In this document: piece by piece, positions 44,711 to 57,051 of the stretch
How the letters are laid out: every line of letters begins with the position of its first letter
Position numbering within the stretch: position 1 is the first letter of the stretch
Origin: Natrarchaeobius oligotrophus
Lineage (GTDB): Archaea; Halobacteriota; Halobacteria; Halobacteriales; Natrialbaceae
Length of the DNA stretch: 64,000 bases
Assembly: GCF_003841465.1 (NCBI RefSeq)
Contig: NZ_REFZ01000001.1
Location: 310,001 to 374,000, forward strand
Direction of reading: 5' to 3'
The notes under the pieces: model-generated
Databases searched by the model: none
Told to the model about the DNA's origin: nothing
The model's input: only the letters and a program-made list of their open reading frames with translations
Made by a program: the position numbers and the translations under genes

Positions 44711-47700
44711 TTACCCCTCACAAATCTCTAACTCATCGCCGGTGTCAACACTCCTGATTCCAAAGGGAAGCGTTACGACTGCTTCGTCGGATTCGTCGTC
44801 CACGACTGTGATCTCAAGATCGTATGATCCGGTCGAGTTGAAAGCTAGATCTCGGGTGAGATCGATGTTGACGTCCGGCGGGAACTCGATCGGTTCGTCT
44901 GTGATTTCGCCGACTAGCTTACCATCGACCTCCTTGAGATCGTCTCGTCTTGCGAACTCGACTTCACCTTCAGAGATGCCATCCTCGCCAGAAATTTCGA
45001 TTTCGAGGCGGATGTCACCACCAGATTCGTCAGACCTGTTGGCGAGCGAAAATTCGAGGTCAGTGAAGGATCCTGTCTCGACAACAGAGGGAGTCATGAT
45101 CTCGAGATCGACCGCGGTCTGAATAACAACCTGATCGCCGCCGATGGCTGCAGGCGGCCGCTCGCTTCGCTGTTCGTTCCGTATCAGGACCTCAAGGAAC
45201 TCGGGAATCGAGTCTTCCTCGAACGATTCATGATAACAACACCAGCCATCCATTCCGCTTTGTGTCAACCCAAGTTCCTTCCCCGCTTCCGTGACGTCCA
45301 CCGACGAAAAGCTAGTTTCGATCGGATCGATGTCCGCAATTTCGCTGACGTAGGCCCAAGAGTCGTTGAGGCCGTCCTGGGTCTTGCCTAAGAGTCCACC
45401 GCCAGTGTTTACGAACTCCGCAATATCTTCTTGCCGGTCAATGAGCGCCTGGTTCTCGCTGTTAACAAGGCCGTTGTTGATCTGGTCCGTACTGCTGACG
45501 ATCCCGATCATCGCATACCCATCGAAATCGACATTACGAATATTGTCGCTTTCATTGACGAATGTCACCGGTTCGTCAACGCGTGAATCGTTCCCGACGT
45601 CGCCTTCCCAGTAGTCGACGATATCTGGATTACTATCGGTATTACCACCGAGCACGAGGATACCCTCGCCATCGTTCGTAACACTATCCAAGATCGATTC
45701 GACCATCTTAGCGTGTTCCTCCGGCGGGCCGTGACTGCTCGACCCTGGAGTCAGCTCCGAATCAAGACCCATCAAAATCACAGGGCCGCCAGTAACTTGC
45801 CCTTCGACGGTGAGTGTTCGGCGGTCGCTTTCGATACAGACTGGCTCTGGATCGTCGGACAAATAAAAACTCGGACCGTATGCGCCGACATCCAGATTTC
45901 TAGCGTCAAGGGGTTCCGAGACATCGATATCCGTCGACGTGCTGTATCCGACGACACCCTTCGCAAGTGTTTCCGAAAGCAGGGATTCGGGTGCAATAGG
46001 TGTGTCCTGGGTCAATGAATCACCAGCCGACCAGAACGCCGCGAGTTCGACGCCGGCACTGCCGCTTGTGCCCGCGCCAGCAAGTCCACGTGCGGCGCGG
46101 TAAGTCATAACCGGGCCCGGAAGGGCAGCGGAGATCACCCCATTTGCGAATATTTCAAAGCTCTCGCCAAGGAGATTCGCGACGACTTCCTCAGTCGTAT
46201 CACCCACCGTGTTGAACTCCGATGTCGATGTGAAGTTACTAACCCCGGTTTTTTCTGCGAGTTCACCCTCGACCTCGACGTCCAGGACGAATTCGCCGAT
46301 GTCACTAAACACCCGGTCTATTGACACTAACTCAAGGGCTCTCGACGACGGATCACAGTCCGTCGTCGATGTTATAATCAGGTCGAACTCTTCATCGACG
46401 GATCCATCAGCGAAATCCTCCTCACTGTAGTCCCTCTGGATTGGCGCGCTAATAAGGTCCCCCTCGTCTGCGATATTTCCGTCTTTATCATATACTGCGA
46501 CGAGTTCACCTTCTGGCCCCGGATCCGCGCTCATTACGACGGATACATCACCGGTTGTAAGGGATCTGCTCTGCCAGTGTGCGGAAAACGTCGCGGGGAT
46601 ACGGAAAACCCTCGTATCATCATCGAGGTCGTCCGGAACCCAGTCCGGAATGCCGTCACTGACGCCTGGCAGCCAACTCCCAAAGGCCGCATCGTTGTAC
46701 GCGTACTCTAAGGGGTACAACACGGGAGAGTCATCGTTCATACAGGTTTCCGGCAGTAGTTCCAGCGAACTGTTTTCTTGACTGGGGTCGTAAACTTCTC
46801 CGCCACTCTCGGTCAGAGTCGGCAACAGGATCTGGAACCAGAATTGGTCCTCAGGGTCCGTCGATTCGACCGAAAGACCAGAAGATACCCGCTGGCCCGC
46901 GTTCAATTGAGTCTGTTCAGATCTGATCTCACGTGCTACCTCATTGATTCCAGCCAACCTCCCAATTGTATCTGGTGTATCAAAATCGACGAGGTTGTCT
47001 GAAACACCCTCCGGTACGTTGAACACGTCGACATTGGACAGCCCAGCCGTGGTTCTCAGTGTGATGGATTCCGAACCAGGATTGGAGACATCAAACAGTT
47101 CTGTGAAATTCTTCGGCAGATCATCGCCGGATTCTGAGCTCAGGTCGATCGTGATATGATCACCGATCTCCACGCGCGAATCCGTCGATTCGAACTCTAT
47201 CGCGTCGATATCCTTCGACGCTTCGAACCTGACGAACGTTTCTTCTACAGTTTCCTCGGGTTCTGCCAGTGGTTCGGGAAGAATTATCGTTCCGTCAAGC
47301 TCTCTCCCCGCACCACCGACACCACCCTCGTCGAATTCAGTCAACTGGAAGAGAGAAAACCCACTAGCCAACGCAAAATAATGGTAGCTGGTGGGCGTTT
47401 CGTTGACGAGGATCGTTCTGACCTGCTCGAACGTTCCGTTGACCTGACGCTGGAGCGTCAGATCCTGTGGGTTATCAATTTCGTCCCTATCCACAGAGAA
47501 GCAAAACCGAACGGTCTCCGGTTCGTCTTGCTCAAAATCATTCACAATCTCGAACCCACCGTCGTCAATTGAGTCGTATGCGTCTGGAAGTGCAGGATCA
47601 TCGATCGTTATGTCCGGATCGATAGTAAATTCGACCGTCCCGACGGACTCCCGCCGGACCGACAGAGAGAGCATGCGGATCGATTCATCCTCGTTGATAG

Positions 47701-48799
47701 GAATGTTCGGCAGGTCCGCAATAATCGCCCCTTGATCATCGAGTTCAGAGGAAACGACTTCGACAGGGGGGTCATCCGAAACATCGAGGTTGAGGTCATC
47801 CTCTGAGCGCGGTGGCCACGGTGCGATCGCAAGCTTGTTGCCTACAAACCGATTGTTTTCTTGGATCGGTTGCGTATCAACATCAGCGAGTTCGGAGTCG
47901 TCGTTGACGACGAGGAGACCCACGTAATTGTCCAGAAAGAGGTTCTCTCCATCAGAACCGCCCAGTGAGACTTCTTCTGTATCTGGGTTAGTCCGTAGTT
48001 GGACCCCAGCCCCTTTCAGTGCCTTATCCCCTTCTTTACGAACGAGTTCGTCGGTGCCGAGAACAATGTTATTAGATAGGCTGATCGTTTCATCATAACC
48101 CCGCCCGATGTCGATTCCAACTGTGTCGGTGTCGATATCAAACCCTTCAATTGTGACATCGGAAGCATGAACCTCGATGCTGCCCTCAAGTAAGGGTTGA
48201 GTATTGAATTCTGGGACCTCTATATACTCGGTAACGTTACTACTACCGTCTACCGTTGCATTCCCCCTTGTCGCTGTGATTAGTCGATTGGCATCTCCCG
48301 TGATGGCCGGGGTTGCGTTCCCACGGGCAGCAACGTACAATCGCTCTACTTCGCCTTCGATCTCCGGACTGGAATTACCCTTCGATTCCACGAAAACAGT
48401 CTCATAGGATCCTGCTACAGTGGGTTGGGCGGTACCAGTCGTGGTGAGAATCAGGTTGTCACCTTCTCCGATTATTTCCTCTGAGGAATTTCCGCTCTCT
48501 TTTACCGCGATAGTCTCGGTTCCCGAAAACATCCGTGTCCGAGAGTCAGATTCCGCTCGCAAAGTGAGTGAATCTGTGTTGATTTCCACATTCTCTCGGA
48601 AGAGAGTCTCCAATCCGACTTCGATAGTGTGGCCCTCCTCAGCCTCATCTACAGCAGATTGTATCGAATCGTACGTATCGTCAGCATCTCTATTCTTGAC
48701 TTTGTCTCTCTGGTTATTCGGGTTTCGTGACAATCCATGAACGGGTGCCGATAAGGCCGTGACAGTACCAAGTCCGGCGATGAAGTGACGTCGTCTCAT
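44711..48799 (-). CDS. Giant Tat-exported beta-helix protein with PGF-pre-PGF domain
   Basis: 1362 residues. The N-terminus RRRHFIAGLGTVTALSAPVH is a Tat signal. Residues 40-330 look like a pectate-lyase-type beta-helix, starting YDSIQSAVDEAEEGHTIEVG. About five ~21-residue repeats near 96-195 carry glycosylation sequons (GNSS, GNSS, GNAT, GNAT). A PGF-pre-PGF-type domain lies at about 345-490 (FCFSVDRDEIDNPQDL, then ALASGFSLFQLTEF). The middle is unassigned. Near 1030-1240 a domain (VILMGLDSELTPGSSSHGPP, then VDFDGYAMIGIVSSTDQINN) resembles an alpha/beta domain seen in other secreted actinobacterial and haloarchaeal proteins. No PGF-CTERM anchor ends the protein. Composition is AT-richer than the core. 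Confidence 0.82.
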   Translation of the reverse strand: MRRRHFIAGLGTVTALSAPVHGLSRNPNNQRDKVKNRDADDTYDSIQSAVDEAEEGHTIEVGLETLFRENVEINTDSLTLRAESDSRTRMFSGTETIAVKESGNSSEEIIGEGDNLILTTTGTAQPTVAGSYETVFVESKGNSSPEIEGEVERLYVAARGNATPAITGDANRLITATRGNATVDGSSNVTEYIEVPEFNTQPLLEGSIEVHASDVTIEGFDIDTDTVGIDIGRGYDETISLSNNIVLGTDELVRKEGDKALKGAGVQLRTNPDTEEVSLGGSDGENLFLDNYVGLLVVNDDSELADVDTQPIQENNRFVGNKLAIAPWPPRSEDDLNLDVSDDPPVEVVSSELDDQGAIIADLPNIPINEDESIRMLSLSVRRESVGTVEFTIDPDITIDDPALPDAYDSIDDGGFEIVNDFEQDEPETVRFCFSVDRDEIDNPQDLTLQRQVNGTFEQVRTILVNETPTSYHYFALASGFSLFQLTEFDEGGVGGAGRELDGTIILPEPLAEPEETVEETFVRFEASKDIDAIEFESTDSRVEIGDHITIDLSSESGDDLPKNFTELFDVSNPGSESITLRTTAGLSNVDVFNVPEGVSDNLVDFDTPDTIGRLAGINEVAREIRSEQTQLNAGQRVSSGLSVESTDPEDQFWFQILLPTLTESGGEVYDPSQENSSLELLPETCMNDDSPVLYPLEYAYNDAAFGSWLPGVSDGIPDWVPDDLDDDTRVFRIPATFSAHWQSRSLTTGDVSVVMSADPGPEGELVAVYDKDGNIADEGDLISAPIQRDYSEEDFADGSVDEEFDLIITSTTDCDPSSRALELVSIDRVFSDIGEFVLDVEVEGELAEKTGVSNFTSTSEFNTVGDTTEEVVANLLGESFEIFANGVISAALPGPVMTYRAARGLAGAGTSGSAGVELAAFWSAGDSLTQDTPIAPESLLSETLAKGVVGYSTSTDIDVSEPLDARNLDVGAYGPSFYLSDDPEPVCIESDRRTLTVEGQVTGGPVILMGLDSELTPGSSSHGPPEEHAKMVESILDSVTNDGEGILVLGGNTDSNPDIVDYWEGDVGNDSRVDEPVTFVNESDNIRNVDFDGYAMIGIVSSTDQINNGLVNSENQALIDRQEDIAEFVNTGGGLLGKTQDGLNDSWAYVSEIADIDPIETSFSSVDVTEAGKELGLTQSGMDGWCCYHESFEEDSIPEFLEVLIRNEQRSERPPAAIGGDQVVIQTAVDLEIMTPSVVETGSFTDLEFSLANRSDESGGDIRLEIEISGEDGISEGEVEFARRDDLKEVDGKLVGEITDEPIEFPPDVNIDLTRDLAFNSTGSYDLEITVVDDESDEAVVTLPFGIRSVDTGDELEICEG

Positions 48800-49042: not shown

Positions 49043-49810
49043 TCAGTCCGCGACGACCGCGGGCAGACCGGCGAGTTCGACGTCGTGGTCGTCGATTCGC
49101 TCGTGGATCGCCTCGAGCAGTTCGACGGCGTTGGGGTTGTCGCCGTGGATGCAGATGCTGTCGGCGGGGACCGAGATCTCCTCGCCGTTTGCGGCCTCGA
49201 CGACGCCCTCGGTGGCGATGGAGACGAACCGGTCGGCGACGAGGTCGGGGTCGCGGTCCGACAGCTCCTGTTCGACGATCAGCGATCGGTCGGCCCGGTA
49301 GTCGAGGTCGACGTACCCCTCGAAGACGGCCCGCAGGCCGTCGACCTCCTGGGCGACCTCGTAGATGTTCATGTCCGTCGCGAGGTAGATGAGGTCCTCG
49401 TCGACCTCGAGCATTCCCTCCATGACGGCCCGGGCGTGCTCGGGGCTCTCCGAGAGCATCGAGTACATCGCGCCGTGGGGTTTGACGTGCTGGACCGAGG
49501 TTCCGTGGCGGCGGGCGAACGCCGTGAGCGCGCCGAGCTGGTAGATGACGTAGTCGCGGACCTCCTCGGGGCTCGCGTCCATCTTCCGGCGGCCGAATCC
49601 CATCTTATCGGGGAGGCCGGGGTGGACGCCGATACCGACGTCGTGGTCTGCGGCCAGTTCGACCGTCTCGCGCATCACGTGCGGATCGCCCGCGTGGTAG
49701 CCCCCGGCGACGTTCGCGGACGTCACGTAGGGCATGACCTCGGCGTCGTTTCCCATCGACCAGTTGCCGAAGCTCTCGCCCATGTCGCAGTTGATGTCGA
49801 TCTCGACCAT
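49043..49810 (-). CDS. pxpA: 5-oxoprolinase subunit A (LamB/YcsF family)
   Basis: 255 residues, normal for PxpA. With PxpB and PxpC it hydrolyses 5-oxoproline to glutamate with ATP. VEIDINCDMGESFGNWSMG (2-20) and TSANVAGGYHAGDPHVM (30-46) are the signature metal/substrate segments. GIGVHPGLPDKMGFGRR, VQHVKPHGAMYSML and ICIHGDNPNA carry the conserved His and Asp residues. It is last in a leftward cluster after pxpB, pxpC and a biotin carrier protein; the gaps of about 150-180 bases before it could hold internal promoters. Confidence 0.93.
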   Translation of the reverse strand: MVEIDINCDMGESFGNWSMGNDAEVMPYVTSANVAGGYHAGDPHVMRETVELAADHDVGIGVHPGLPDKMGFGRRKMDASPEEVRDYVIYQLGALTAFARRHGTSVQHVKPHGAMYSMLSESPEHARAVMEGMLEVDEDLIYLATDMNIYEVAQEVDGLRAVFEGYVDLDYRADRSLIVEQELSDRDPDLVADRFVSIATEGVVEAANGEEISVPADSICIHGDNPNAVELLEAIHERIDDHDVELAGLPAVVAD

Positions 49811-49965
49811 GTGTGCAACTCCGTCGCACGGCCCGATATAGGTTGTGTGCGGGTCGCACCCGGCGCTCCAGTCGCTCGAGACTCATCACGCATCGAGCCG
49901 TTCGACCGCGGATCGGAGTCGGGGATGGGTCGAACGGGAAAAAGCGGCGGATCGCTCGAGCGCGA

Positions 49966-50214
49966 TCACTCCACTTCGATCTCGACGATGGCCTGGTCGG
50001 CTTCGATCTCGGATTCGTCCTCGACGTGGAACTCCCCGACGGTGCCGGCCTGGTCGGCTTCGATCTCGTGGAAGTTCTTCATCACCTCCACGAGGCCGAT
50101 CGTGTCGCCGGCCTCGACGCTGTCTCCTGGTTCGACGAACGGTGCTTCTTCGGGATCCGAACGTCGGTAGAAGACGCCCGGCATTGGTGAGTTGACGGTG
50201 GTGGTCTGGGACAT
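49966..50214 (-). CDS. Biotin carboxyl carrier protein
   Basis: 82 residues, a single biotinyl/lipoyl domain. EVMK at residues 43-46 carries the biotin-acceptor Lys46 in the EVMKNFHE context typical of biotin carriers (AMKM in many bacteria). The start SPMPGVFYRRSDPEEAPFVE and the second strand GDSVEAGDTIGLVEVMK are the domain's mirror-image halves. It sits between pxpC and pxpA. No biotin carboxylase gene is adjacent, so the partner must be encoded elsewhere. Confidence 0.9.
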   Translation of the reverse strand: MSQTTTVNSPMPGVFYRRSDPEEAPFVEPGDSVEAGDTIGLVEVMKNFHEIEADQAGTVGEFHVEDESEIEADQAIVEIEVE

Positions 50215-50396
50215 TGTGATTTCGGAGCCGCGTTACCACGGCGTGCTGTGTGGCGTGTGGACGAGTGTCGTATCCATCCGATCCGTACGACGTCCGCACT
50301 CATACGTGTTGGCTCGAGACGGCCACCTCGTCCGCGTTCGAGTCGGTTCGATCGCGGACGCTCGAGTCGGCTCGATCCTCGCTGGGGGCGACCCGC

Positions 50397-51368
50397 TCAT
50401 CCGTCGATCACGGACCGAATCTCCGCGAGGCGCTCGCTCCGACGCCGTCGCGCGTCGATCGCCTCCTCGACGTCGACCGACTCGAACGAGACGGTCTTGT
50501 GGGTCTGGCGCTGGGCCAGCAGTCCCCGATCGGCGCTGATGACGGTGCCGACGGTGGCGTAGCCGCCGCCAGTTACCGCGTCCTGCATGAGGACGATCGG
50601 CTGCTGGGGAACCTGAATCGAGCCGATCGGGTAGCCGAGGTCGACGACGTTCGACGGATCGGTGCCGGCACCGAACGGCTGGTCGCGCTCTTCGAACTCG
50701 AGGTCCGGTCCCTCGAGGCGGTAGCCGACGCGGTCGGCCTCCGCGGAGACGGTCCACTCGGCGGAACAGAGCGTCTCCCTGGCCTCGTCGGTGAGCCGGT
50801 AGCTGGTCAGACCGACGACGATCCGGACGGTGTCCTCGTCGGCGTAGTCGGGGACGTACTCCGCGGGCAGTCGCGTGCCGACCAGGTCGGCGCTGCCGTT
50901 CGCGGGGTCGCCGATCGGGAGTTCGTCGCCCGCCTCGAGTCCGCGGCCTTCGTGACCGCCGATGCCGACCAGCGTGTACGTCGACCGGCTCCCCATCACC
51001 TCGGGAACGTCGACGCCGCCGGCGACGGCGAGGTACGCGCGAGCGCCGTCGGTCGCGAACTGGACATCGAGTTCGTCGCCCGCATCCACGGCGACGGTCT
51101 CCCAGGTGCCAATCGGATCACCGTTCAACTCCGGCGACATGTCGGCACCGGTGATCGCGATCACGGCGTCGTCGTCGAACGTGGCCGTGATTCCCTGGTA
51201 GGTCATTTCGACGGTCGCGGCGTCGCCGTCGTTGCCGACGAGGTAGTTCGCGACCGTGTGGGCGTACTCGTCCATCGCCCCCGACGGCGGCATGCCGATG
51301 TGGTAGTGTCCCGTCCGGCCGAGGTCCTGGACGGTGCTCGCGATTCCGCCCTCGCGAATTTCGATCAT
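50397..51368 (-). CDS. pxpC: 5-oxoprolinase subunit C (AHS2/KipA-type carboxyltransferase domain)
   Basis: 323 residues. IREGGIASTVQDLGRTGHYH (4-23) is the opening of the AHS2/PxpC family. MPPSGAMDEYAHTVANYLVG, ITGADMSPELNG and LAVAGGVDVPEVMGSRSTYT follow. The end PQQPIVLMQDAVTGGGYATV, then GTVISADRG, matches family ends. AHS2 is homologous to part of the carboxyltransferase of urea carboxylase. Its ATG overlaps the pxpB stop by four bases (51365-51368), so translation of B and C is coupled. Confidence 0.93.
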   Translation of the reverse strand: MIEIREGGIASTVQDLGRTGHYHIGMPPSGAMDEYAHTVANYLVGNDGDAATVEMTYQGITATFDDDAVIAITGADMSPELNGDPIGTWETVAVDAGDELDVQFATDGARAYLAVAGGVDVPEVMGSRSTYTLVGIGGHEGRGLEAGDELPIGDPANGSADLVGTRLPAEYVPDYADEDTVRIVVGLTSYRLTDEARETLCSAEWTVSAEADRVGYRLEGPDLEFEERDQPFGAGTDPSNVVDLGYPIGSIQVPQQPIVLMQDAVTGGGYATVGTVISADRGLLAQRQTHKTVSFESVDVEEAIDARRRRSERLAEIRSVIDG

Positions 51369-52267
51369 TCGATTACCTCCGTGAGCCGCTCGTTGTACTC
51401 GTGTGGCGACTCGAAGAACTCCTCCGGCGAGAAGCGCACCCGCTCGTAGGTGTACTCGTACGTGCCGGCTTCGACCTGCTCGCGGATCTCGTCGTAGGTC
51501 TCGCGGTCGATGCGGCGGTAGTTCAGGATGTCGCCGGGGTTGGGAAACACCATCGAGTCGCCGAAGTCGGGCAGCGACTGGTCGACGTCCAGCACCTCGA
51601 TGGGCGTCCGCCCGTACAGCTGGTAGCCGCCCGCACCCTGGACCGGGTAGATGACCGAGAACGCGCCCCCGAAGCCGACCGCGCGACTCGGCGTGTCGGT
51701 GCGGGGCTCGACGTACTTCGGCACCTCGAGCTGTTCGCTGCGGGGCACCATCTGGAAACACCACGGGAGTCCGGGGACGAACCCGACCATCGTCACCATG
51801 TGCGGCGCGCCGACGAACGCGTCGAGAAACGCCTCCACGGAGTCGTAGCCGTTGATCCGCGCGGAGTACTCGAGGTCGGTCGAGTCGGCGTCCTGGTGGC
51901 GGTCCCGAAACTCCATGAGCGTCTCGTGGGTCCACGGATCCTGGAAGAGGACGGGGACGTCGATCAGCCGCGTCTCCCACTCGTACTCCTCGAGGTCGAG
52001 TTCGGCCTCGAGTTCGCGAAGCTCCGCGATGAGGTCGTCCGGGTGGATCACCTCGGGATCGATGCGGAGCATGTAGGAGGCGTTGGCGGGACAGTTCTCG
52101 ACGACGCCCTCGATGTCGCGTTCGGCCACCTGCTGGGTGATCGCCATCGCCTTGAAGTTCGCGGTGAAGCTCATCGCTTCCGCGAGCTCGACGAACACGT
52201 GATCGTCCGCGCCGTACTCGTAGCGGGGCTCGGGAAGGTCTACTGGTTTGATCCGTTCGTTCGCCAT
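51365..52267 (-). CDS. pxpB: 5-oxoprolinase subunit B (AHS1/KipI-type carboxyltransferase domain)
   Basis: 300 residues, longer than bacterial PxpB because of a roughly 60-residue N-terminal extension and an extended C-terminus. The AHS1 core shows VPVLFQDPWT, VGFVPGLPWCFQMVP (the G-F-x-P-G-x-x-x family motif), PRTDTPSRAVGFGGAFSVIY and GAGGYQLYGRTP. The first gene of the leftward operon, it faces coxG across 379 bases. The ATG at 52267 was chosen over 52282 because it directly begins the conserved NERIKPVDLP. Confidence 0.92.
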   Translation of the reverse strand: MANERIKPVDLPEPRYEYGADDHVFVELAEAMSFTANFKAMAITQQVAERDIEGVVENCPANASYMLRIDPEVIHPDDLIAELRELEAELDLEEYEWETRLIDVPVLFQDPWTHETLMEFRDRHQDADSTDLEYSARINGYDSVEAFLDAFVGAPHMVTMVGFVPGLPWCFQMVPRSEQLEVPKYVEPRTDTPSRAVGFGGAFSVIYPVQGAGGYQLYGRTPIEVLDVDQSLPDFGDSMVFPNPGDILNYRRIDRETYDEIREQVEAGTYEYTYERVRFSPEEFFESPHEYNERLTEVIE

Positions 52268-52646: not shown

Positions 52647-53258
52647 ATGAGATTCGACGGGACGTTCGAACTCGAGGACGCGTCGACGGAGGCGGTCTGG
52701 CTCGCGCTGTCCGATCCGGTGATGATCGAGCGGTCGCTGCCGGGCTGTGAGTTCCTGCTCGAGGTCGACGGCGACGAGAACTTCGACGAGCTTCGCGAGC
52801 GGGCGGACGCGATCGAGGAGCAACCGCCCACGCTGCCCGAGGCGACGCCGGAGGAGGTCGCCGAGCGCGCCTTCGAGGAGGGCCAGACGTACGCGGCGCT
52901 GATGGAACTGGGCGTCGGCGGCGTCAAACCGAGTTTCGAGACGACGGTGACGATCGCCGAACGGGAGTTCCCCCGGATGGCGACGACCGGAGAGGGGTCG
53001 GCCGCCAACAGCTCGTTCGAGATGTCGGCGTGGATGGAACTCGCGGAGACCGACGACGGCGTCGCCGTCGAATGGGAGGCCGAGGCCGACGTCTTCGGCA
53101 AGATCGCACAGCTGGGCGGTCGCGTCATCAACCCGGTCGCCAACCGTCTCGTCAACCAGTTCTTCGACGACGTCGCCACCCGGCTGCGCGAGGTAGAGGA
53201 CGCAGACGACGAGGGCGACCGAACTCGCCTCAGGGATCGAATCAGGGACGCGCTATGA
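52647..53258 (+). CDS. coxG: CoxG-like SRPBCC protein
   Basis: 203 residues. The SRPBCC/CoxG fold is seen in [31 protein letters not shown] (the S-L-P-G-C signature), [34 protein letters not shown] and NQFFDDV. In molybdenum carbon monoxide dehydrogenase systems CoxG helps membrane recruitment of the enzyme. The insert of about 40 acidic residues (about 50-90) is longer than in bacterial CoxG. It is first in the operon with coxS, coxL and coxM. The longer frame from 52368 is not protein-like. Confidence 0.88.
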
Positions 53259-53292: not shown

Positions 53293-53787
53293 ATGACCAC
53301 GGACACACACGAGATCACGCTCACGGTCAACGGAACGACACGAGAACTGCGCGTCGAACCTCGGACGCTGCTGATACACGCGCTCCGGGACGAGCTGGGG
53401 TATACGGGACCCAAGGTCGGCTGCGAGACCACCCTCTGTGGAGCCTGTACCGTCCACGTCGACGGGAAGCCGGTCAAGTCGTGTACGATGCTGGCCGTCC
53501 AGGCCGACGGTGCCGACGTGACCACGGTCGAGGGGCTCGGCGAGGCTGACGAGCTTCACCCGCTTCAGACGGCGTTCCAGGAGGAACACGGGCTGCAGTG
53601 TGGCTACTGTACGCCCGGCATGCTGCTGACGGCGCTTTCGCTGCTCGAGGACGAGCCCGACCCGACGCGGGCGGAGATCAGGGAGGCGCTCGAGGGGAAC
53701 CTCTGTCGGTGCACCGGCTATCAGAACATCGTCGACGCCGTCGAGACGGCCGCCGCGCGGATGAACGCGGCCGAGGGGGCCGACTGA
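53293..53787 (+). CDS. coxS: Molybdenum hydroxylase small subunit, two 2Fe-2S clusters
   Basis: 164 residues. The plant-type cluster ligands are Cys44, Cys49, Cys52 and Cys64 ([17 protein letters not shown]...SC), and the second cluster ligands are Cys103, Cys106, Cys138 and Cys140 ([18 protein letters not shown]). All eight are intact. It passes electrons from the Mo-cofactor subunit to FAD. GGAGGA at 53278-53283 is a good ribosome-binding site. The stop and the coxL start are one base apart. Confidence 0.95.
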
Positions 53788-53788
53788 G

Positions 53789-56152
53789 ATGGCGTCGGAA
53801 CCGAACGCCGAGAGCGTCTTCGGCTCGTCGGTCGAGCGCCGCGAGGACGTCGGTCTGTTGACGGGCGACGCCGAATTCACGGACGACAAGCTTCAGGACG
53901 CCGCCCACGTCGCGATCCTGCGCAGCCAGTTCGCCCACGCGACGATCGAGGAGATCGACGTTAGCGCCGCCGAGGAGCGCGACGGCGTGCTCGCGGTCTA
54001 CACCGGAGCTGACGTCGAGGAAAGCGGCGTTCCGAACGATATCCCGACCGCGTGGATGCTTCCCGGGCTCGTGACCCCGCAGTACCGCATCATGGCGACT
54101 GACAAGGTACGCCACACCGGCGACGCCCTCGCCGCGGTGGTCGCCGAGGACCGCTACGCGGCCTACGACGCCCTCGACGACGTCGACGTGACGTACGACC
54201 GGCTCGAGGCGGTCACGAGGCCCGACGAGGCGGTCGAGTCCGACGTGACCGTCCACGAGGAAGCGCCCGACAACGTCGCGTTCGACTTCGAACTCGGGGA
54301 CGCCGACGCCGTCGACGAGGCCTTCGAGGCGGCCGACCACGTCGCGAGCGTCGACCTCGAGCAGCCGCGCATCATCCCGAACGCCGTCGAACCGCGTGCC
54401 GCCGCCGCGTCCTACGACCCCTCGAGCGACGAGCTGACGGTGTGGATGACGTCACAGAACCCCCATCTCCACCGGGTGCTCATGTCGACGGCGACGCTCG
54501 GTCACCCCGAGCACAAGCTGCGGATCGTCGCCCCGGAAGTTGGCGGGGGCTTCGGCAGCAAGATCTACCACTACCCCGACGAGGCGATCACCGCCTGGTG
54601 TGCGAAACAGCTCGGCGGCTCGGTCAAGTGGCAGGCGACGCGAACCCAGAGCTACGCGACCGACTGCCACGGGCGCGATCACGTCACCGAGGCCGAACTC
54701 GCGCTCGATTCCGACGGCACCATCCGCGGACTGCGCGTCGAAACGCACGCGGGTCTGGGCGCACACCTCTCGCAGTTCGCCACGGCGACGCCGTCGTACC
54801 TCTACGCGACCATCCTCTCGAGCGAGTACGCCATTCCGGCGATCCACTGCCGCGTGATCGGCGCGTTCACGAACACGACGCCGGTCGACGCCTACCGCGG
54901 CGCGGGCCGCGCGGAGGGAATCTACGTCACCGAGCGGATCGTCGACGTCGCGGCGAGGGAACTCGACCTCGACCCGGTCGAGGTTCGTCGGACGAACCTG
55001 ATCCCGCCCGAGGAGTTCCCCTACGAGACCGCGGTCGCGCTCGTCTACGACAGCGGCGAGTACGAGGAGGCGATGGACCGCGCGCTCGAGCTGATCGACT
55101 ACGAAGGCGTCCGCGAGCGCCAGGAGAAACTCCGCGAGGGGGGACGGTACCTCGGGGTCGGCGTCGCGAACTTCGTGGAGTCGGCGGGGCTCTCGCCGTC
55201 GAAGGCCGCCGGCGAACTCGGCGCGCAGGCCGGCGGCTGGGAGGCCGGCGTCGTCCGCTTTCACCCGTCCGGTACCGTCTCGGTCGCCGTGGGAACGGCC
55301 GACCAGGGCCAGGGTCACCGCACGACGCTCGCCCAGGTCGCGGCGGCGGAACTCGGCGTCCCGGTCGACGACGTCGAGGTCGTCGAGGGCGACACCGACG
55401 AGGTCCCCCAGGGGATGGGGACCTACGGCAGCCGGAGCGGTCCCGTCGGCGGCGGCGCTGTCGCCCAGAGCGGCCGCAAGGTCGTCGAGAAAGCTCGATC
55501 GATCGCCGCCCACAAGCTCGAGGCGAGCGAGGACGACGTCGAGTTCGACGACGGAACGTTCCACGTCGTGGGCGCGCCGGATCGATCGATCTCGATTCAG
55601 GAACTCGCCTACGCGGCCTACCTCGGCCACGACATCCCCGACGAGATGGAGCCCGGACTCGAGGCGACGTCGTACTACGATCCGGAGAACTTCACGTTTC
55701 CGTTCGGAACCCACGCCGCGGTCGTCGAGGTCGACCCGGACACCGGCGAGGTCGAGTTCCACCGCTACGTCGCGGTCGACGACTGCGGCGAGCAGATCAA
55801 CCCGATGATCGTCGAGGGCCAGGTCCACGGCGGAATCGCACAGGGGATCGGCGCGGCGCTCTCCGAGGCGGCGAACTACGACGACAACGGGACGCTCGTC
55901 TCGGGCTCGATGAACGAGTACGCGCTCCCGCGGTCCGACAGCTTGCCGGAGTACGAAACCGACAGCACCGTCACGCCGAGCCCGCACAACCCGATCGGTG
56001 TCAAAGGCGTCGGCGAGTCGGCGACGATCGGCGCGACGCCGGCCGTCGTCAACGCCGTCGTCGACGCGCTCGAGCCGTTCGGCGTCGACCACCTCGACAT
56101 GCCGCTGACGGACGAAACCGTCTGGACGGCGATCGACGGGGGTGAGCGCTGA
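53789..56152 (+). CDS. coxL: Form II molybdenum hydroxylase large subunit (CoxL/XdhA-like)
   Basis: 787 residues of the xanthine dehydrogenase/CoxL family. GGGFGSK (252-258) and the active-site loop AYRGAGR (368-374) mark form II; true CO dehydrogenase form I has AYxCSFR. GVGE near the end holds the catalytic Glu743 that activates the Mo-bound water. Form II enzymes hydroxylate N-heterocycles, aldehydes or purines; CO oxidation is not supported. It lies in coxGSLM order and shares one base with the coxM start. Confidence 0.94.
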   Translation: MASEPNAESVFGSSVERREDVGLLTGDAEFTDDKLQDAAHVAILRSQFAHATIEEIDVSAAEERDGVLAVYTGADVEESGVPNDIPTAWMLPGLVTPQYRIMATDKVRHTGDALAAVVAEDRYAAYDALDDVDVTYDRLEAVTRPDEAVESDVTVHEEAPDNVAFDFELGDADAVDEAFEAADHVASVDLEQPRIIPNAVEPRAAAASYDPSSDELTVWMTSQNPHLHRVLMSTATLGHPEHKLRIVAPEVGGGFGSKIYHYPDEAITAWCAKQLGGSVKWQATRTQSYATDCHGRDHVTEAELALDSDGTIRGLRVETHAGLGAHLSQFATATPSYLYATILSSEYAIPAIHCRVIGAFTNTTPVDAYRGAGRAEGIYVTERIVDVAARELDLDPVEVRRTNLIPPEEFPYETAVALVYDSGEYEEAMDRALELIDYEGVRERQEKLREGGRYLGVGVANFVESAGLSPSKAAGELGAQAGGWEAGVVRFHPSGTVSVAVGTADQGQGHRTTLAQVAAAELGVPVDDVEVVEGDTDEVPQGMGTYGSRSGPVGGGAVAQSGRKVVEKARSIAAHKLEASEDDVEFDDGTFHVVGAPDRSISIQELAYAAYLGHDIPDEMEPGLEATSYYDPENFTFPFGTHAAVVEVDPDTGEVEFHRYVAVDDCGEQINPMIVEGQVHGGIAQGIGAALSEAANYDDNGTLVSGSMNEYALPRSDSLPEYETDSTVTPSPHNPIGVKGVGESATIGATPAVVNAVVDALEPFGVDHLDMPLTDETVWTAIDGGER

Positions 56153-57051
56153 TGTACCCGGCATCCTTCGAGTACGTCGCGGTCGACAGCGCCGAGGAAG
56201 CGATCGACTCGCTCGCCGAGCACGGGGACCGAGAGGTCACGCTGCTGGCGGGCGGACACAGCCTCCTGCCGATGATGAAGTCCGGACTGGCTTCCCCGGA
56301 GGTCGTCGTCGACCTCGGCGGCGTCGACGCGCTCTCCGGCATCGAACGCGGCGACGACGCGACCCGGATCAACGCGATGACCGAGTACGCCGCGGTGGCC
56401 GACGACGAGGGGCTGTGGAGCGATAATCCGGTCGTCCCGGAGGCCGCCGCCGCGATCGGGGACGTGCAGGTGCGAAACGTGGGGACCGTCGGCGGTAACG
56501 TCGCCCACTCCGACCCCGCGGCCGACCTTCCCGCGGCGATGCTCGCGGCCGACGCGACGATCCACGCGCTCGGCCCCGACGGCGAGCGCGAGATCCCCGC
56601 GGCCGATTTCTTCCAGGCGATGTTCACGACCGCGCTCGCGGACGGCGAGCTCCTCACCGCGATCGACGTCCCCCACCTCGGATCGGACGACGCCGCCGCC
56701 TACGTCAAGAAGGCGAGCCCCTCCTCGGGATACGCGCTGGTCGGCGTCGCCGTCGTGCTCGAGACCGACGGGGAGGAGATCGCCGACGCGCGGGTCGCCG
56801 CCAACGGCGCGTTCGACCACGCGATGGCCCTCGAGCCGGTCGAGGAGGAACTCGTCGGCGGATCGCTCGACGACGAGTCGCTGCCCGAACGCGCGGCCGG
56901 ACGGGCCACCGACGACGTCGAGTCGTACCTGGTGCTCGACGACGAGCAGGCTTCGAGCGAGTACCGGGCGCACCTGCTCGAGGTTTACGCCGAGCGCGCC
57001 CTCGAGACGGCGATCGACCGCGTCGGCGACGGTTCGAACGCCGACGGCTGA
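56152..57051 (+). CDS. coxM: Molybdenum hydroxylase FAD subunit
   Basis: 299 residues. LLAGGHSLLPMMKSGLASPE (about 31-50) and GTVGGNVAHSDPAADLPAAM (about 110-129) are the two FAD-binding signatures of CoxM/XdhB-type subunits. The C-terminal CO_deh_flav_C-like region is also present. The stop of coxL and this ATG overlap by one base (TGATG), so translation is coupled. It is convergent with the JAMM gene. Confidence 0.94.
   Translation: MYPASFEYVAVDSAEEAIDSLAEHGDREVTLLAGGHSLLPMMKSGLASPEVVVDLGGVDALSGIERGDDATRINAMTEYAAVADDEGLWSDNPVVPEAAAAIGDVQVRNVGTVGGNVAHSDPAADLPAAMLAADATIHALGPDGEREIPAADFFQAMFTTALADGELLTAIDVPHLGSDDAAAYVKKASPSSGYALVGVAVVLETDGEEIADARVAANGAFDHAMALEPVEEELVGGSLDDESLPERAAGRATDDVESYLVLDDEQASSEYRAHLLEVYAERALETAIDRVGDGSNADG

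Follow-up and report, generated by a model that had tools for sequence, protein, structure and literature searches.

Known carboxylases and lactam-opening enzymes

Urea carboxylase (fungal Dur1,2 and bacterial Uca; K. lactis structures 3va7 and 5i8i) brings three activities together in one chain. The same three activities, with homologous carboxyltransferase halves, appear to be spread over four proteins in the haloarchaeon Natrarchaeobius oligotrophus, where the biotin carrier is a free, AccB-like protein. The genes concerned lie on the minus strand at positions 49043-52267 of the window (the whole stretch of 64,000 nucleotides that was analyzed, positions 310,001 to 374,000 of contig NZ_REFZ01000001.1), in the order pxpB, pxpC, biotin carrier, pxpA; a stand-alone biotin carboxylase (BC) is encoded elsewhere on the same contig. 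An original prediction, made from the sequence of the stretch alone, had described a split carboxylase lacking only its BC. The architecture it proposed has stood, but the BC is not missing, as its gene is found about 110 kb away. It is probable, at roughly 75%, that the four window genes and this BC make up a split amide or lactam N-carboxylase of the urea carboxylase type, with PxpA opening the carboxylated ring.

The 5-oxoprolinase PxpABC (ybgJKL in E. coli, kipI/kipA/ycsF in B. subtilis) shares with this cluster a PxpA family member and homologous PxpB and PxpC domains. It differs in that the haloarchaeal proteins have a lysine for an arginine and GGYQ for GGWQ, and are accompanied by a dedicated BC and carrier. 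The PxpA family (LamB/YcsF) takes its name from LamB of Aspergillus nidulans, whose lamA and lamB genes were reportedly connected by Katz and Hynes in 1989 with the utilization of lactams (2-pyrrolidinone); that study is cited in PMC8016842. A precedent for bicarbonate-dependent lactam opening is provided by the caprolactamase CapAB, which is ATP-dependent and strictly requires bicarbonate, its authors including carboxylation of the lactam among the possible mechanisms (PMC8453981). CapAB is nevertheless unrelated to the present system, as it belongs to the hydantoinase/oxoprolinase family and uses no biotin.

The same five genes are found in a bacterial operon, pxpA-carrier-accC-pxpB-pxpC, with a carrier of PRK07051 and a BC of PRK12833. 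This operon is compact and comes with a LysR regulator and, in many cases, an ABC transporter, whereas the haloarchaeal version is scattered; the two probably represent the same enzyme. The two split carboxyltransferase genes were flagged as unstudied by Lombard and Moreira in 2011 (PMC3199775). A literature search that covered few subscription papers returned no functional study of the operon and no description of a biotin-dependent PxpABC.

The gene cluster and its products

Pfam and NCBIfam assignments agree for all four products (Table 1), and the reading frames of pxpB and pxpC overlap by 4 bp. The carrier had been placed between pxpC and pxpA, with Lys46 in an EVMK motif, and both its coordinates and its family matches bear this out. 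It scores 110.5 bits against NF005457 (cut-off 87) and matches the biotinyl domain of E. coli AccB (1bdo) over residues 7-80, with identical numbering on both sides. Lys46 is the predicted site of biotinylation; in the carriers of related clusters the MK is invariant and the Glu preceding VMK is occasionally Gly. An assignment as a lipoyl domain was rejected, the top-scoring family being the biotin carboxyl carrier protein. The genome also encodes proteins of the biotin ligase family. The product of pxpA is the sole LamB/YcsF protein of the genome.

Distribution of the system in haloarchaea

The original prediction had proposed a survey of haloarchaeal pxp clusters for the carrier gene, and this was carried out on 145 haloarchaeal genomes of at least 90% completeness, with the carrier counted only above its family cut-off. 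PxpC occurs in 16 of these genomes, from 13 genera, and the carrier occurs in exactly those 16. The nominal chance of two identical sets of this size is 1 in C(145,16), or about 1e-21, on the assumption of independent genomes, a figure that overstates the evidence because the surveyed genomes are related to one another. A chance neighborhood of carrier and pxp genes was rejected on the identity of the two sets.

A stand-alone BC accompanies every intact pxpC (15/15 genomes). Among the BC matches listed, all those with an open frame shorter than 560 amino acids come from genomes with PxpC. The sixteenth genome (G123) has no stand-alone BC and its pxpC is broken, with stop codons and only positions 149-260 remaining. 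In this genome the pxpC fragment with its stops sits beside a carrier gene that is still intact (L106, 8815-9585), the picture of a decaying copy of the system.

The five genes mostly fall within 7 kb of each other in haloarchaea, in varying order and orientation. Two outliers are the carrier of G047, about 60 kb off, and the BC of G137, about 39 kb off. The co-occurrence has outlasted this reshuffling of gene order and therefore argues for a joint function. Several of the clusters are plasmid-borne, and an Lrp/AsnC regulator is often found beside the haloarchaeal version.

The stand-alone biotin carboxylase

The whole genome (4.6 Mb in 69 contigs, with the window at C1:310001-374000) encodes two BCs. 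The first is the usual haloarchaeal fusion of BC and carrier, in a locus with the order PccB, small open reading frame, PccA. The second consists of a BC alone; it scores 614 bits against NF006367, above the cut-off of 597, and is identical to E. coli AccC at 15 of 16 active-site positions, with variation at position 236. The genes beside it include neither a carrier nor a carboxyltransferase of the PxpBC type. In a congener (G119), BC, pxpA, carrier, pxpC, pxpB and a molybdenum-hydroxylase operon form a single locus (L092) in which BC and pxpA are 3 kb apart. The left part of this locus matches the BC region of the present genome in reverse and its right part matches the window directly. Because of this arrangement, it appears that one inversion with a breakpoint between BC and pxpA has probably moved the BC away. 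The expectation that BC would be supplied from elsewhere is well supported by a dedicated stand-alone gene, which is inside the cluster in nearly all relatives.

The carrier and this BC could instead serve an acetyl- or propionyl-CoA carboxylase with a separate carboxyltransferase and merely lie near the pxp genes, an alternative already raised with the original prediction. Both are named acetyl-CoA carboxylase in databases, and the genome does contain two carboxyltransferases of PF01039. However, the cluster itself has no PF01039 partner, and one of the two copies adjoins the fused BC-carrier protein. The second copy is retained, at 79-84% identity, in 13 of the 14 tested haloarchaea that have neither PxpC nor an above-cut-off NF005457 carrier, and it is therefore independent of the free BC and carrier. 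Their role as partners of this second carboxyltransferase was rejected on these grounds. As both PF01039 enzymes are explained without the carrier, service to an acyl-CoA carboxylase is very unlikely.

Affiliation of the carboxyltransferase

The labels PxpB and PxpC hold as far as homology to PF02682 and PF02626 is concerned, but neither protein reaches the curated cut-offs for 5-oxoprolinase subunits. PxpB scores 98 bits against the urea carboxylase model TIGR02712 and 71 bits against TIGR00370 for PxpB (cut-off 145.55). PxpC scores 228 bits against TIGR02712 and 220 bits against NF045499 for PxpC (cut-off 500). No subunit comes close to the full-length cut-off of TIGR02712 (1303.85 bits), the system being made of four chains and not one.

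In a tree of 36 rows of concatenated PxpB and PxpC, a branch with support of 100/99 separates two sides. One holds the window group, the group of the bacterial operon, three urea carboxylases and Thermomicrobium; the other holds canonical PxpBC of E. coli, Paenibacillus and others. The window group is set apart from the urea carboxylases, with the bacterial operon group as its sister clade. Because the program issued a long-branch warning, the exact positions within each side are less certain.

K. lactis urea amidolyase uses Lys1605 as its general base (PMC5770610), and K184 of PxpB (in VPKYVEPRT) aligns with it. This position is a lysine in all 25 linked PxpBs, in Thermomicrobium and in the three urea carboxylases, and an arginine in all eight canonical PxpBs. 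The GGYQ of PxpB at Y215 (GGWQ in canonical PxpB) divides the groups in the same way, as do N240, D243 and Y246 of PxpC, which are common to urea carboxylase. The kinship to the carboxyltransferase part of urea carboxylase that had been asserted from family knowledge is thus upheld by the branch and by K184.

These results bear on the canonical reaction, in which PxpABC would phosphorylate 5-oxoproline directly with ATP and the carrier would be an unrelated neighbor. In its favor, PxpA scores as the 5-oxoprolinase subunit PxpA, neither BC nor carrier adjoins the pxpBCA operon of E. coli, and phosphorylation of 5-oxoproline by PxpB and PxpC is described in a 2026 paper (PMC13274462) as an assumption. 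It is nonetheless an unlikely account of the present genes, given that PxpB and PxpC fall below the family cut-offs and on the urea carboxylase side of the tree, and that carrier and BC accompany every intact pxpC in the surveyed genomes.

Bacterial relatives

The bacterial evidence comes from plasmid records, 255 of which contain a match to the carrier (tblastn). Azospirillum, Diaphorobacter, Agrobacterium, Sulfitobacter and Shinella possess the compact operon, frequently with a TorT-like ABC transporter after it, and Rhizobium laguerreae has the same gene order. It is annotated as acetyl-CoA carboxylase plus 5-oxoprolinase. Public annotation already shows this type of operon, but under names that mislead, and both of these database names are probably misleading for the genes described here. 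The Thermomicrobium roseum cluster comprises accC, a molybdenum hydroxylase of three subunits, an ABC transporter, the carrier, pxpB, pxpC, pxpA and the biotin transporter gene bioY.

In Paracoccus, Gemmobacter and Microvirga (L126, L127, L129), pxpA occurs with a fused pxpBC and a fused BC-carrier. This is a second type of linkage, in which a BC is joined with PxpBC of the arginine type. Two annotated records among these three also encode an NRAMP metal transporter and a putative hydro-lyase. On the Lactiplantibacillus plasmid pEM2 (L124, 4620-6787), pxpB, pxpC and an AccB-type carrier gene follow one another next to an IS256 transposase.

Proposed enzyme and mechanism

The architecture of the split carboxylase is strongly supported by its subunits, active-site residues, co-occurrence, linkage and a carboxyltransferase on the urea carboxylase side. 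From this architecture we infer that the proteins form a complex, that the carrier is biotinylated, that an amide nitrogen is carboxylated, that PxpA opens the carboxylated ring and that the substrate is a lactam. BC would use ATP and bicarbonate to carboxylate the biotin on Lys46 of the carrier. A heteromer of PxpB and PxpC, in which K184 of PxpB serves as the general base, would then carboxylate a small cyclic amide on its nitrogen. PxpA would hydrolyze the activated N-carboxy-lactam to an amino acid and CO2. The overall scheme would parallel urea carboxylase and allophanate hydrolase, with a LamB-type hydrolase replacing the latter. PDB entry 9yx5 suggests that proteins like PxpBC can form an assembly with a BC subunit: besides chains named allophanate hydrolase subunit 1 and subunit 2, it contains the AccA3 BC-carrier subunit. 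Its allophanate hydrolase chains are close to 3mml, which matches PxpB and PxpC.

The homology of PxpA suggests that the substrate is a lactam. A split carboxylase of urea, guanidine or another acyclic amide would agree with the position on the urea carboxylase side of the tree and with the common lysine and motifs. This is quite unlikely, as the partner is LamB/YcsF (PxpA) and not allophanate hydrolase, and in the tree the window group stands apart from the urea carboxylases. Whereas an allophanate hydrolase is annotated with the urea carboxylase of Novosphingobium and of Enterobacter, in the same operon, a Pfam scan of the neighboring genes in the window and the annotation of related clusters revealed none, the rest of the genome being unsearched.

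A number of observations weigh against a split lactam carboxylase. BC is unlinked from the pxp cluster in this genome. Plasmid pRHL2 of Rhodococcus jostii (L110) carries pxpA, carrier and BC, with no PxpBC within the 14 kb read. In Paracoccus, Gemmobacter, Microvirga and Lactiplantibacillus, a BC or carrier is linked to PxpBC of the arginine type, which lack the lysine; the lysine therefore marks a urea carboxylase-like clade and not biotin use, and lysine versus arginine was rejected as an indicator of biotin linkage. For PxpB and PxpC, AlphaFold models (three sequences) reached a pLDDT of 52 and 38, so that K184 could not be placed, and 9yx5 is known by its chain names alone. In addition, the genome has three genes of the hydantoinase/oxoprolinase type (HyuA; C36:4571, C3:213378 and C8:61446, loci L135-L137), whose products could be alternative openers of 5-oxoproline or hydantoin. 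It is because of these three genes that 5-oxoproline is one candidate substrate only.

If the split lactam carboxylase is real, the names in use are wrong in many genomes, considering the plasmid records alone. Biotin-dependent carboxylation would then be a general route to the opening of stable cyclic amides, parallel to the breakdown of urea. The proposal also bears on how PxpBC, which consists of carboxyltransferase domains only, makes use of ATP, since BC would be responsible for the ATP step in this lineage.

Neighboring genes and candidate substrates

A molybdenum-hydroxylase operon diverges from the cluster (Table 1). Its molybdopterin subunit scores 697.9 bits, under the CO dehydrogenase cut-off of 991.15. 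A molybdenum hydroxylase also lies beside the cluster in the congener, in Natrialba swarupiae and in G116 (loci L092, L014 and L098). As it recurs near the cluster, and also within that of Thermomicrobium, the enzyme may make a lactam from an N-heterocycle or a cyclic amine, although this is a guess. A wider and tentative scheme, which we hold to be possible at somewhat less than even odds, is that the molybdenum hydroxylase turns such a compound into a lactam and that the split carboxylase and LamB/YcsF open the ring by transient carboxylation, as a widespread class of biotin enzymes. On this scheme, other PxpABC "5-oxoprolinases" might also rely on the BC and carrier of fatty-acid or acyl-CoA carboxylases.

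Table 1. Coordinates and family assignments of the cluster, the stand-alone BC and the divergent operon (window positions unless prefixed with the contig, C1)
Feature	Position	Strand	Families and remarks
pxpB-like, 300 aa	51365..52267	-	PF02682, CT_C_D; one carboxyltransferase half, urea-carboxylase type
pxpC-like, 323 aa	50397..51368	-	PF02626, CT_A_B; other carboxyltransferase half
Free biotin carboxyl carrier protein, 82 aa	49966..50214	-	PF00364, Biotin_lipoyl; NF005457/PRK07051
pxpA (LamB/YcsF), 255 aa	49043..49810	-	PF03746, 297 bits; NF003814, 302 bits, cut-off 226
Stand-alone BC, 453 aa	C1:471955-473316	-	No carrier domain; same contig, ~110 kb from pxpB
CoxG-like protein	52647..53258	+	PF06240; ATG at 52647; divergent molybdenum-hydroxylase operon
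[2Fe-2S] subunit, molybdenum hydroxylase	53293..53787	+	PF01799, PF00111
Molybdopterin subunit, xanthine-oxidase family	53789..56152	+	PF20256, PF02738, PF01315; motif AYRGAGR at 368
FAD subunit, molybdenum hydroxylase	56152..57051	+	PF00941, PF03450

Adjoining pxpA, positions 44711-48799 of the minus strand encode a protein of 1362 amino acids that lacks a Pfam match and begins with a twin-arginine-like sequence (MRRRHFIAGLG).

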